In this document: piece after piece, positions 16,028 through 21,758 of the stretch | Layout of the letters: the number at the start of each line of letters is the position of its first letter | Numbering within the stretch: position 1 is the stretch's first letter | Assembly (NCBI GenBank): GCA_016931785.1 | Contig: JAFGED010000228.1 | Span: 1 to 32,962 of the forward strand | Reading direction: 5' to 3' | Source: Anaerolineae bacterium | Lineage (GTDB): Bacteria > Chloroflexota > Anaerolineae > B4-G1 | DNA: 32,962 nt | Notes under the pieces: model-generated | The model's database searches: none | What the model was told of the DNA's origin: nothing | Seen by the model: the letters and a program-made list of their open reading frames with translations, nothing else | Program-made: the position numbers and the translations under genes

Positions 16028-17305
16028 ATGGCAGCAGAGGCAGGGGCACGGCAAGAGGTAGGGCCGGCAAAGCGGGCCAGGAAGGCGCGTGCTCGCTTTG
16101 ATTACGCGCTGGTGCTGGCGGTGGCTGCGCTGCTCGTCATTGGATTGATGATGGTTTACAGCGCGACCTTCGATTGGTCGTATCAAGTGCACGGCAACTC
16201 TTTCCTGATCGCGTCCCGGCAGTTTATGTGGGTCGGCCTGGGCGTGGTCGCGCTGATCGCTGTTGCCCTTACACCCTACGATTGGTGGCAGCAGGCGGCG
16301 GTGCCGGTTATGGGCGTGACGCTGGTGCTGTTGATTTCGGTGCTCTTTGTCGGCGAAGAGATCTTTGGCGCAAAGCGCTCGTTTCTCGGCGGCTCGATCC
16401 AGCCGGGCGAGTTGGCCAAGCTGACGATGGTCATCTACGTCGCCGCGTGGCTGACCTCCAAGGGCGACCAGATCCGCGATGTGACCTACGGCTTGGTTCC
16501 ATTCGCCGTGTTGATCGGCGTCGTGGCCGGCCTGATCGTAGCGCAGCCGGACGTGAGTACGTCGGTGATGATCGTGCTGACCGCACTGGTGATGTTTTTC
16601 TTTGCCGGCGCCGACATCGTGCAGCTGGCCGTGAGCGGCGTCGTCAGTGTCATCACCTTTCTCGTGCTGATCAACCAGTTCCCTCACGCCAAAAGGCGGC
16701 TGACGGAGTGGATGGAAGTGTGGGGTGACCCGACGCGCGTCAGCTATCACATCCGCCAGGCACTGATCGCCATGGGCAGCGGCGGCCCCGTGGGCGTGGG
16801 ATTGGGTGAGGGCAAGCAAAAGCTGGGCTTCCTGCCGACGCCGCACACCGATTCCATTTTCGCGGTGCTGGGCGAGGAGATGGGCCTTTTTGGCTGCCTG
16901 ATCGTGATCGGTCTGTTCGTGCTGTTGGCCTATCGCGGCTTCAGGATCGCCCGCGAGTCGCCGGACGCTTTCGCGGCGCTCTTGGCGTGTGGGGTGACAT
17001 GCTGGCTGGTGTTCCAGGCGTTGGTCAACGTTGCCGTGGTGACTGGCCTTCTTCCCTTCACCGGGGTGGCGCTGCCGTTCATCAGTAGCGGCGGCTCCTC
17101 GATGGTGGTTTCGTTGGCCGGGGTAGGACTTTTATTGAGTATTTCACGGGGCAAGCGAATTGGAAAAAGAACTCAGGGGCGAATCGGCAAGGCCCTCCAA
17201 CCTGCGACTTTGGATCGCAGGTGGGGGGACGGGGGGCCACGTCTATCCCGGCCTGGCCGTGGTACAGGCACTCGCCACACGCGCCACACCAGCCGCCGAA
17301 GGTAA
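16028..17305 (+). CDS. ftsW: Septal lipid II polymerase FtsW (SEDS family) with an arginine-rich tail that overlaps murG
   Basis: A multi-pass membrane glycosyltransferase that polymerises lipid II together with the class B PBP. The 425-residue product has a basic cytoplasmic N terminus (KRARKARARFDYAL), about ten membrane segments, the SEDS signature RQALIAMGSGGPVGVGLGEG followed by LPTPHTDSIFAVLGEE (about residues 243-285), and PFISSGGSS (about 350-358). After the last membrane helix (LLLSISRGKR) the frame continues for about 48 residues, of which roughly a quarter are arginine. This tail is encoded in 146 bases that also encode the first 48 residues of MurG in another frame. It could be genuine or a drift of the stop codon. 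Confidence 0.94.
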   Translation: MAAEAGARQEVGPAKRARKARARFDYALVLAVAALLVIGLMMVYSATFDWSYQVHGNSFLIASRQFMWVGLGVVALIAVALTPYDWWQQAAVPVMGVTLVLLISVLFVGEEIFGAKRSFLGGSIQPGELAKLTMVIYVAAWLTSKGDQIRDVTYGLVPFAVLIGVVAGLIVAQPDVSTSVMIVLTALVMFFFAGADIVQLAVSGVVSVITFLVLINQFPHAKRRLTEWMEVWGDPTRVSYHIRQALIAMGSGGPVGVGLGEGKQKLGFLPTPHTDSIFAVLGEEMGLFGCLIVIGLFVLLAYRGFRIARESPDAFAALLACGVTCWLVFQALVNVAVVTGLLPFTGVALPFISSGGSSMVVSLAGVGLLLSISRGKRIGKRTQGRIGKALQPATLDRRWGDGGPRLSRPGRGTGTRHTRHTSRRR

Positions 17306-18335
17306 CGTCGCCCCGGAGATCCTCTACGTCGGTGGGAAGGGTAAGGTAGAGGAACAGCTCGCTGCGCGGGCAGGGTTGCGTTTCGTGGGAGTGCCCGTAG
17401 GCGGCATTCATGGATTGCCACCCTGGCAGGTGGCGTGGAACCTGACCAAGTTAGCGTGGGGATGGCTGGCGGTGCTGCTGATGGGACTGAGGCAGCGCCC
17501 CGCGGCGCTGTTCGCAACCGGGGGATACGCCAGCGTGCCGGTGGCGCTGGCGGCCTGGATGTTGCGGGTGCCGATCCTGGTCTACCTGCCCGACATGGAG
17601 CCGGGGTGGGCGGTGCGCTTCGTCGCCCGCCTGGCGGCGCGGGTGGGAGTGACGGTGGAAGAGGCGGCAGCACACTTTCCGGCGCACAAGGCCGTGGTGA
17701 CCGGCTACCCGGTGAGGGCCGAGTTTCACTCGGTTGACCGCGCGGAGGCACGATCGGCGTTCGGCCTGACGCTAGACGAAGCTCCGGTGCTCTTGGTGAT
17801 GGGGGGAAGCACCGGGGCGCAGGGGATCAACCGACCGTTTTGTGAGATGCTGGAGCAGGGATTGGAGCTGGCGCAGGTGATACACGTGACCGGAAAGATC
17901 GATTGGCCGTGGATTCAGGAGCGGCGCGAGGCGCTGCCCGCAGCGCTGCATGCGCGCTATCAGATTCACGATTACGTACACGATATGGGAAAAGCATTTG
18001 CAGCCGCGGACCTGGTCGTTTGCCGGGCGGGCGCGTCGATATTGGGGGAGCTGCCCTTCTTTGGGCTGCCAGCGGTGTTGGTGCCGTATCCGCACGCCTG
18101 GGAGTACCAGCGGGTCAACGCCGATTGGCTGGCCGAGCGAGGCGCTGCGGTAAGGCTCCAGGAGGAGCGGTTGGGCGAGGAGCTGTTGCCCACGCTGCGG
18201 CGCCTGCTTGGCGAGCGAGAGGCACGCGCGGCGATGGCGGAGCACATGCAGGCGCTGGCCCGCCCCGATGCGGCCGCGCGGCTGGCGGGCGAGTTATTGG
18301 CCCTGGCGCAGGCTGGCGGCGGGAGGGGGGTGTAG
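17160..18335 (+). CDS. murG: UDP-GlcNAc:lipid I GlcNAc transferase MurG
   Basis: Peripheral membrane GT-B glycosyltransferase that adds GlcNAc to lipid I, making lipid II. The 391-residue protein has the donor/acceptor loop GGGTGGHVYPG (residues 21-31), FATGGYASVPVALAA, GGSTGAQGIN and the C-terminal CRAGASILGELPFFGLPAVLVPYP with EYQRVNADWL. Where most MurGs have HEQNAVPG there is YLPDMEPGWAVR, which I associate with Chloroflexota-type MurG. The start is a TTG at 17160 with only a modest GGGGC in front. No ATG or GTG exists before the glycine loop, so initiation lies within ftsW. The next gene follows with no gap. Confidence 0.94.
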   Translation: MEKELRGESARPSNLRLWIAGGGTGGHVYPGLAVVQALATRATPAAEGNVAPEILYVGGKGKVEEQLAARAGLRFVGVPVGGIHGLPPWQVAWNLTKLAWGWLAVLLMGLRQRPAALFATGGYASVPVALAAWMLRVPILVYLPDMEPGWAVRFVARLAARVGVTVEEAAAHFPAHKAVVTGYPVRAEFHSVDRAEARSAFGLTLDEAPVLLVMGGSTGAQGINRPFCEMLEQGLELAQVIHVTGKIDWPWIQERREALPAALHARYQIHDYVHDMGKAFAAADLVVCRAGASILGELPFFGLPAVLVPYPHAWEYQRVNADWLAERGAAVRLQEERLGEELLPTLRRLLGEREARAAMAEHMQALARPDAAARLAGELLALAQAGGGRGV

Positions 18336-18980
18336 ATGCTGCCGATTCACACGGTATTCCTTATCTTGATGGTTCTATTCGGCCTGATCGGCGGCCTGCG
18401 CGGCTGGGCCAAGGAGATCATCGTGGTCTGCAGCGTGATCGTGGCCTTGTTCTTCCAGCATGTGCTATTACTCCCGATGCTGCCGTTCAGAGATTTATTT
18501 TACAACCTGGCCCCGCAAACCCGGTTCTACACACGCACCGTCGTGTTCATCATCATCTCCATCTTCGGGTACGCCAGCCCGACGGTGATCGGCAGGATCG
18601 GGGCGAAGGTGGCCCGCGAGCGGCTGCAGGATATCCTGCTGGGCTTTTTTATCGGCCTGCTTAACGGGTTCCTCATCATCGGCACGATACTCGCCTTTCT
18701 CGACATGTCCCAGTTCGGCGTGCCCGAGGATCAGCGAGGGATCCAGCAGAAGGTAGATGAGAACGGCAACCCGGTGTACGACGAGGACGGCAACCCGGTG
18801 ACGGAGATTGTCTACTATCCCGGCGCTGAGGGGATTGGAGGCATAAAGCCCCCAGAGCCTGAGACCACCTCGTCAAATCTCTTGGCCATTCTGCCGCCGA
18901 GGATTATCGAACAGTCGGAGGTGGCGCTGTATCTGGCGGTAGCGCTTTCGTTCGTATTTGTGCTGATCGTGTTTATATGA
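18336..18980 (+). CDS. CvpA-like membrane protein
   Basis: The product has 214 residues and about four hydrophobic helices: residues 5-21, 29-50, 67-87 and 105-128, plus one at the C terminus (193-214). The N-terminal half has the pattern of the CvpA/colicin V production family: a first helix ending GLIGGLRGWAKEI, and a later RLQDILLGFFIGLLNGFLIIGTIL. Between the fourth and last helices is a polar loop with a tandem DENGNPV/DEDGNPV motif and an acidic, proline-rich stretch. The start codon follows the murG stop directly, with GGGAGGGGGG in front, and its TGA overlaps a possible ATG of murC. The role in this cluster is unknown, and the CvpA assignment is moderate. Confidence 0.68.
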   Translation: MLPIHTVFLILMVLFGLIGGLRGWAKEIIVVCSVIVALFFQHVLLLPMLPFRDLFYNLAPQTRFYTRTVVFIIISIFGYASPTVIGRIGAKVARERLQDILLGFFIGLLNGFLIIGTILAFLDMSQFGVPEDQRGIQQKVDENGNPVYDEDGNPVTEIVYYPGAEGIGGIKPPEPETTSSNLLAILPPRIIEQSEVALYLAVALSFVFVLIVFI

Positions 18981-20618: not shown

Positions 20619-21758
20619 GTGATGGGTGGTAGCGAGGAGATGCAGGGCTTTTTTGGAGGAGCGTTTCGGGGGATGCCGGTTCTGGTGACCGGCCACACCG
20701 GTTTCAAAGGCTCCTGGCTGAGCATCTGGTTGAGGGAACTTGGAGCCAAGGTGATCGGCTACAGCGTGGACGTCCCGACCGCGCCGAGCAATTTTGAGGC
20801 GTCGCGCTTGGGCCAGCGGATGACGGATGTGCGCGGCGATGTGCGGGACTTGGACGCGCTGTGCCGGGTGATCGACGAGCACAAGCCGCAGGCCGTCTTT
20901 CACCTGGCAGCCCAGCCGATCGTGCGCCTGTCCTACGCCGAGCCGAAAGGGACTTTCGACGTCAACGTCGGCGGCACGGTCAATTTGCTGGAGGCGGTGC
21001 GGCTGACCGATTCGGTCGAGGCCGTGGTGTGCATCACCAGCGACAAATGCTACGAGAATCGAGAGTGGCTGTGGGGCTACCGGGAGATCGACCGCCTCGG
21101 CGGTCACGATCCGTACAGCGCCAGCAAGGCGATGGCGGAATTGGCCGTCGCGTCTTACCGGCGCTCGTTCTTTTCCGTGGATATGGCCGACGAGGTGTGT
21201 TTGGCCTCCGCGCGGGCCGGCAACGTGATCGGCGGGGGCGATTGGGCGCAGGATCGATTGGTGGTGGACTGCATGTGCGCGTTGATGGCTGGCCAGCCGA
21301 TCCCCGTCCGCAACCCGCATGCGGTACGCCCGTGGCAGCTCGTCCTCGAGCCGCTGAGCGGATATCTGTGGCTGGCGGCAAAGCTGCTGCAGGAGGACGG
21401 CGGGCGATATGCTGAGGCGTGGAATTTTGCCCCGCCTGGAAGCGTGTCCGTCAGCGTCGGCGATCTGGTGCAAAAGCTGATCGAGCTGTGGGGGGCGGGT
21501 GAGTGGCAGGATTTGAGCGCGAACCAGGCCCAAGCGCCACACGAGACCGGCCTTTTGCGGTTGAGTTGGGAAAAGGCGGCGAATCGTCTCGGTTGGCGGC
21601 CGGTCTACGACTGGCACGAGGCGGCGGCTGAGACGGTGAGCTGGTTCAGGGTTTACCACGATCATGGCGCAGATATGGACATGTACGATGCCTGCGTCGG
21701 GCAGATCGCGCGTTACGTGGGCCGCGCGCGTGAGTTGGGGATTCTATGGGCTTTGTGA
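20619..21758 (+). CDS. rfbG: CDP-glucose 4,6-dehydratase-like short-chain dehydrogenase
   Basis: Member of the extended SDR family that converts CDP-glucose to CDP-4-keto-6-deoxyglucose with bound NAD. The 379 residues include the Rossmann loop VLVTGHTGFKGSWL (near residues 21-34), HLAAQPIVRLSY, the very characteristic TSDKCYENREWLWGYRE, the YSASK catalytic pair (Tyr and Lys), and RAGNVIGGGDWAQDRLV with RPWQLVLEPLSGYL. These are RfbG features. It has no rfbF (cytidylyltransferase) or other deoxysugar gene next to it, and it interrupts murC and murB, so its substrate here is uncertain. The start is GTG 20619 or ATG 20622 (AGGGG upstream). It overlaps murB by 13 bases. Confidence 0.88.
   Translation: MMGGSEEMQGFFGGAFRGMPVLVTGHTGFKGSWLSIWLRELGAKVIGYSVDVPTAPSNFEASRLGQRMTDVRGDVRDLDALCRVIDEHKPQAVFHLAAQPIVRLSYAEPKGTFDVNVGGTVNLLEAVRLTDSVEAVVCITSDKCYENREWLWGYREIDRLGGHDPYSASKAMAELAVASYRRSFFSVDMADEVCLASARAGNVIGGGDWAQDRLVVDCMCALMAGQPIPVRNPHAVRPWQLVLEPLSGYLWLAAKLLQEDGGRYAEAWNFAPPGSVSVSVGDLVQKLIELWGAGEWQDLSANQAQAPHETGLLRLSWEKAANRLGWRPVYDWHEAAAETVSWFRVYHDHGADMDMYDACVGQIARYVGRARELGILWAL

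Follow-up and report, generated by a model that had tools for sequence, protein, structure and literature searches.

Long Out-of-Frame Overlap of ftsW and murG in Chloroflexota with a Probably Selected, Arginine-Rich FtsW Tail

In the window, that is, the whole stretch of 32,962 nucleotides of Anaerolineae DNA that was analysed, the ftsW gene runs out of frame into the downstream murG gene, and the same arrangement is found in most of the sampled loci of the phylum. It is likely that this is an old, selected dual-coding overlap, which would endow FtsW with an arginine-rich basic tether and would couple the translation of the two genes. Judged from sequence statistics, selection has probably acted on the arginine-rich FtsW tail as a protein segment, which would then not be the by-product of a lost stop codon. 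Conservation of the overlap, its single phase, the early position of the FtsW stop codon, and the bias in the encoded residues are not given by chance.

The ftsW/murG Locus

Both FtsW and MurG are typical representatives of their families. FtsW matches the SEDS family PF01098 with residues 27–376 (E-value 7.9e-97; 324.9 bits at a cut-off of 26.4; profile positions 2–354 of 356); MurG (GT28) matches PF03033 (70.7 bits; cut-off 26.2) and PF04101 (94.7 bits; cut-off 22) and contains the GGTGGH loop. The last base of the FTSW Pfam match is found at position 17155, and from there the FtsW frame stays open up to a TAA codon within murG (Table 1). The 146-base out-of-frame overlap that had been proposed in a preliminary description of this DNA is confirmed for TTG 17160 as MurG start codon, and it would amount to 104 nt from CTG 17202. 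For either start, the FtsW frame at and beyond the first codon of the MurG loop comprises 83 nt including the stop codon. Being located on the same strand, of a length that equals 2 mod 3, and longer than 8 nt, the ftsW/murG overlap belongs to the long phase-1 same-strand overlaps.

Table 1: Features of the ftsW/murG locus (positions refer to the window).
Feature	Position	Strand	Remarks
ftsW	16028..17305	+	425 aa; stop TAA 17303-17305; ORF list and Pfam PF01098 match
TGA closing the MurG frame upstream	17136..17138	+	Frame reading; MurG frame open from 17139
Weak Shine-Dalgarno-like stretch CGGGGCAA	17147..17154	+	5 nt before TTG 17160; duplex energy -5.0
murG	17160..18335	+	391 aa from TTG 17160; 377 aa if CTG 17202 is used; Pfam
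Out-of-frame ftsW/murG overlap, phase 1	17160..17305	+	Length 146 = 2 mod 3
CTG in place of the ATG/GTG/TTG start found in relatives	17202..17204	+	7 codons before the loop; Shine-Dalgarno energy -3.6
MurG glycine loop GGTGGHVYP	17223..17249	+	Same bases encode FtsW residues in the other frame
FtsW-frame basic motif R405-L-S-R408-P-G-R411-G	17240..17263	+	FtsW alignment
FtsW stop inside murG	17303..17305	+	10th percentile of the synonymous-shuffle null

Two further ORFs were noted by eye in the same cluster. One of them, CvpA-like and membrane-associated in appearance (18336–18980), is located between murG and murC and has a 4-nt overlap with the murC ORF; the other one, resembling a nucleotide-sugar dehydratase (SDR; 20619–21758), is located between murC and murB. 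According to the preliminary description, the remaining overlaps of the cluster would measure 1–22 bases.

Conservation and Phase of the Overlap

The survey started with a search for FtsW in 60 relatives, from which 30 loci were read, namely, the window's own and 29 others. FtsW runs into murG in 23 of these 30 loci, each time in the same phase, and the seven exceptions all come from a single genus (g13). Added to this set were 20 relatives, 80 named genome records, 29 new loci from a 161-genome sample of the phylum, and 48 further regions; the phylum of the sample is Chloroflexota according to the names of the matching records, of which one (L081) is called just "bacterium". From the resulting 207 loci, 25 were excluded (18 without a downstream murG, four with an unaligned MurG N terminus, two with no FtsW stop on the contig, and one lacking the FtsW C terminus), and the 182 usable ones were reduced to 151 non-redundant loci by removing copies that were identical around the loop.

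An overlap is present in 117 of the 151 non-redundant Chloroflexota loci, a proportion that is not an unbiased frequency because the 48 further regions were picked by hand, mostly one or two per family. All 117 overlaps are in phase 1 (2 mod 3). The linker between the FtsW core and the MurG start ranges from 4 to 148 nt, yet the phase is constant in the overlapping loci; in the 34 non-overlapping loci, phases 2, 1, and 0 occur 20, 7, and 7 times, respectively. In the 117 overlapping loci, FtsW ends 44–248 nt beyond the start of the loop, corresponding to 65–269 nt beyond the codon that precedes the loop by seven codons (-7 codon). Within the family of the window, ten out of ten loci read, the window included, enter murG in the same phase; another genome of the family (G009), with FtsW fragments only, is outside these ten. 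According to an FtsW tree of the 151 loci, the overlap state has changed at least nine times. Several lineages do without the overlap, which makes it dispensable.

A variation of the loop itself was observed in the same sample. In 17 of the 151 non-redundant MurG sequences the loop His is replaced by Gly, giving GGTGGG for GGTGGH (loci L062, L065, L083, L091, L141-L145, L157, L161, L166, L169, L190, L198, L118, and L146), and family f16 accounts for nine of these sequences.

Start Codon and Ribosome-Binding Site of murG

At the -7 position, the 117 overlapping loci carry ATG in 57, GTG in 38, and TTG in 10 cases as MurG start. For these 105 loci, the duplex energy of the Shine-Dalgarno sequence has a median of -7.7, the background being -3.2, and a value of -5 or better is reached by 82% of them versus 31% of the background. 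In the overlapping loci, the murG Shine-Dalgarno sequence sits within codons of the FtsW tail.

In the window, TTG 17160 is the sole ATG, GTG, or TTG codon between the upstream TGA and the loop codons. This agrees with the preliminary description, which had noted that neither ATG nor GTG precedes the glycine loop; its conclusion that MurG initiates inside ftsW is likewise supported. With a duplex energy of -5.0 as compared to -3.6 for CTG 17202, the choice leans towards TTG 17160, short of proof. The usual -7 start is absent in three of the ten loci of the window's family (f1), where CTG, GCG, and GGG are found instead. A TTG codon 18–21 codons upstream of the MurG loop is common to four loci of the family (L004, which is the window, L005, L007, and L012), and two of these four, the window and L007, have lost the usual start. 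The shared upstream TTG suggests a family-specific N-terminal extension of MurG.

Position of the FtsW Stop Codon

As a null model, each murG was shuffled synonymously and the distance to the first stop in this phase was recorded. The null median is already 129 nt from the usual start; an open FtsW frame of such length is, therefore, expected from composition, and its openness needs no selection. The observed median is 87 nt. In the overlapping loci, the FtsW stop is found at a mean percentile of 0.27 (0.261 with a larger codon table); the corresponding value for the 34 non-overlapping loci is 0.57 (0.552), and control offsets gave 0.52–0.66 across both sets and 0.58–0.66 inside the overlapping genes. 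Upon clustering of the loci with a threshold of 55% FtsW identity, 24 of 30 overlapping clusters (p = 7e-5) had a mean percentile below 0.5, as compared to 4 of 12 non-overlapping ones. Since it is only in the overlapping loci that stops come earlier than in the shuffle null, some force trims the FtsW tail. Compared with the window, five of the nine remaining loci of the family have their stop 24 nt further upstream.

Residue Bias at the Wobble Positions of murG

In this phase, every FtsW codon begins with the third base of a MurG codon, and the silent positions of murG thereby choose FtsW residues. Over MurG codons 1–19 of the overlapping loci, Arg is more frequent than expected, and Cys, His, and Gly are less frequent (Table 2). 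The shifts of Pro and Asn belong in part to the place and not to the overlap and are weak evidence, because the non-overlapping control has part of the same shifts. Among the wobble positions that favour Arg are those of P8 (65 observed, 33 expected), L10 (43 and 21), A11 (92 and 40), and V12 (54 and 27). The loop His codon of the 117 loci is CAC in 99 and CAT in three cases, with Gly instead in 15.

Table 2: FtsW-frame residues encoded across murG codons (observed/expected).
Residue	Codons 1–19, 117 overlapping loci	Codons 1–19, 34 non-overlapping loci	Codons 40–150, overlapping genes
Arg	726/560	160/162	2093/2116
Cys	1/103	20/21	476/493
His	52/103	36/37	525/494
Gly	307/401	125/120
Pro	87/175	43/66
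Asn	79/27	16/9
Ser	207/132	46/42

At the level of clusters, 28 of 30 overlapping ones exceed the expected number of Arg (p = 6e-6) and none exceeds that of Cys (p = 1.9e-9); the 12 non-overlapping clusters obtained at the same threshold give no significant shift. A small Cys deficit of the non-overlapping loci is seen upon clustering at 90% (p = 0.042) and 75% (p = 0.038) and is not significant at 65% or below. Five Arg sites that are shown separately were picked after the position-wise result, which does not apply to the all-site test. Arg excess and Cys deficit are repeated in five out of five taxonomic subsets of the overlapping loci, the Arg excess being weakest outside the class (Arg 117/99.9; Cys 0/12.7). 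A test with independent pairs, six pairs only, gave Arg 1.7 with and 1.0 against, and any in-frame Cys 0.0 with and 3.1 against.

A dinucleotide effect was considered as the origin of the bias and is disfavoured. Wobble T before G is tolerated when it gives Trp (85/79), while the same dinucleotide giving Cys is almost absent, which places the bias on residues and not on dinucleotides. The preference for wobble C in the overlap region likewise changes its sign with the residue, with ratios of 1.40 before G, 0.51 before A, and 0.50 before C; that is, C before A or C, yielding His/Gln or Pro, is about halved. In codons 40–150 the respective ratios are 1.01, 1.17, and 0.83. A synonymous choice that is biased by the residues of the other gene and absent in controls, as would be looked for in dual coding, is thus found for Arg, Cys, and His.

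Plain conservation of synonymous sites is less telling. The ratio of wobble identity in the loop is 1.93 for overlapping and 2.10 for non-overlapping loci at more than 70% MurG identity, 1.58 and 0.85 at 60–70% (49 comparisons for the latter), and 1.08 and 1.16 at 50–60%; it is not clearly above the non-overlapping controls and not raised at 50–60% MurG identity. At high identity the controls show just as much conservation, which renders this measure uninformative as a test. The mRNA folding energy does not differ from that of synonymous shuffles, either in the 34 of the 117 overlapping loci that were folded (mean z 0.10) or in the 34 of 34 non-overlapping loci.

The FtsW Tail

Tails were aligned from 36 FtsW proteins, all of the overlapping type, comprising the window and 35 proteins picked by hand from 64 overlapping named loci. 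Their consensus is RNxGxRLSRxGR with R405 conserved to at least 90%, and R405, R408, and R411 are all kept in the FtsW of the window. An AlphaFold2 model has no helix past residue 385, and the block means of pLDDT are as low as 44–52 for residues 381–425, for which reason the end of FtsW is assumed to be flexible, basic, and located in the cytoplasm. In mycobacteria, the basic C-terminal tail of FtsW contacts FtsZ; the likeness to the present case is that of a basic cytoplasmic FtsW tail.

In genus g13, which is devoid of the overlap, six of seven FtsW tails still end in an Arg-rich sequence (e.g., SLRSPRSLR), as would be expected if a basic end is wanted. Some lineages possess short acidic tails, such as RPQEEGE (L099) and AMDDDEASA (L132), and FtsW of Ardenticatena-like loci ends in a short acidic tail. 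Together with the at least nine changes of state, this indicates that neither the overlap nor the Arg-rich tail is universally needed.

Comparison with Known Overlaps

In E. coli K-12, ftsW and murG overlap by 4 nt (99644–99647). This overlap of the -4/-1 type concerns the same gene pair in the same order, and coupling is plausible; the Chloroflexota overlap, in contrast, measures at least 65 nt instead of 4, belongs to another phase class, and has the murG Shine-Dalgarno sequence inside ftsW. Long phase-1 same-strand overlaps of bacteria are explained by composition or by the inability to shorten them in the available parts of two papers on overlapping genes (Sabath et al. 2008, PMC2542354; Huber et al. 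2023, PMC10666635). With the cases described there, ftsW/murG shares the common strand, the length of 2 mod 3, and the unidirectional neighbours; unlike them, as far as those parts go, its upstream residues appear to be selected, and it concerns two core cell-wall genes in most sampled loci of one phylum. Overprinted genes of E. coli O157:H7 are similar in that two frames of one stretch are used, but the ones listed in the literature search are separate antisense or orphan ORFs, whereas ftsW shows a C-terminal extension of an old gene into another one. Among the matches listed in the literature search, no work was described as treating this ftsW/murG overlap.

Alternative Explanations

The overlap might be a passive by-product, in which a stop codon was lost once, the GC-rich murG rarely offered another one, and Arg is simply the other reading of GGN. 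The null distance to the first stop, which allows openness without selection, would be in line with this, as would the GGN runs, which alone yield Arg, Gly, and Trp, and the wobble identity, which is not clearly raised. However, stops are earlier than the null, the biases of Arg, Cys, and His already contradict a by-product, and the non-overlapping loci are without early stop, Arg excess, and His deficit and have at most a slight Cys deficit, which makes this explanation improbable. The preliminary description had left the choice between a functional basic tail and a lost stop codon; residue bias and early stop speak for the functional segment, and the lost stop as the whole story was not upheld. 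Alternatively, selection could act on the bases themselves, through the structure of the mRNA, the pausing of ribosomes, or effects of codon pairs close to where murG starts. The region adjoins the start site, and Arg-rich nascent chains can slow ribosomes, but the folding energy, equal to that of the shuffles, and the wobble C preference, which follows the FtsW residue, render such an origin very improbable. As to a base lost or gained by sequencing or assembly of the window's contig, the late FtsW stop with respect to sister loci and the CTG at the -7 position might raise suspicion. The preliminary description would have been refuted by relatives with an FtsW ending near 17160 together with a one-base error; what is found in the family, from different genomes, is entry into murG in the same phase throughout. 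Because the arrangement recurs in other genomes, the overlap itself is real and not a sequencing error, and the probability of this explanation is practically nil. No slippery site was seen by eye among the codons inspected for a programmed +1 frameshift leading to an FtsW-MurG fusion.

Another explanation would confine selection to coupling, the overlap keeping ribosomes crossing the murG start and the sequence of the tail hardly mattering. According to the available parts of PMC10666635, coupling was demonstrated in E. coli and Haloferax with gene pairs that overlap by a short distance, and a long phase-1 overlap has no way of shrinking to -4 or -1; the location of the murG Shine-Dalgarno sequence inside ftsW would also fit. 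Yet coupling alone predicts neither Arg excess nor avoidance of Cys and His, and the 117 overlaps, all at least 65 nt when counted from the -7 start, lie outside the distance of -8 to +6 nt given for termination-reinitiation in the same parts of that paper. Selection on coupling alone is, thus, doubtful. The inability to shorten may account for the persistence of an overlap once it has been entered, but leaves the residue bias unexplained.

Proposed Mechanism and Significance

In the favoured reading of a selected dual-coding overlap with tether and coupling, ftsW and murG would overprint each other, the 3′ end of the former lying in the +1 frame on the 5′ end of the latter. Sequence statistics suggest that selection acts as if translation of FtsW continued across the glycine loop of MurG, that it holds the FtsW stop close behind the loop, and that the free wobble bases of murG are spent on Arg residues of FtsW under avoidance of Cys and His. 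The product would be a short, flexible, Arg-rich cytoplasmic tail following the last FtsW helix and would tether FtsW electrostatically to an acidic partner, which could be membrane lipids, FtsZ, or MurG itself. Since translated ftsW codons contain both the ribosome-binding site and the start codon of murG, ribosomes passing along ftsW could open the murG site, by which the supply of MurG would be tied to FtsW synthesis.

A farther-reaching version is put forward tentatively, as possible rather than likely. The MurG loop and a partner-binding FtsW tail would have shared the same DNA, locked together, for much of Chloroflexota history, with murG codons serving FtsW; the tail would recruit MurG or FtsZ, and lipid II synthesis and polymerisation would be coupled at the levels of DNA, translation, and protein.

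Where bacterial genes overlap over a long distance, annotation noise or a remnant of composition is often assumed. For annotation, the present case is a warning, as a probably selected segment would be lost if FtsW were cut back to where murG starts. The conserved tail motif gives a handle on the role of the FtsW tail, and in ftsW/murG the silent positions of one core gene appear to carry the protein signal of another one, making this pair a clear-cut example of dual coding in core genes that lends itself to testing.
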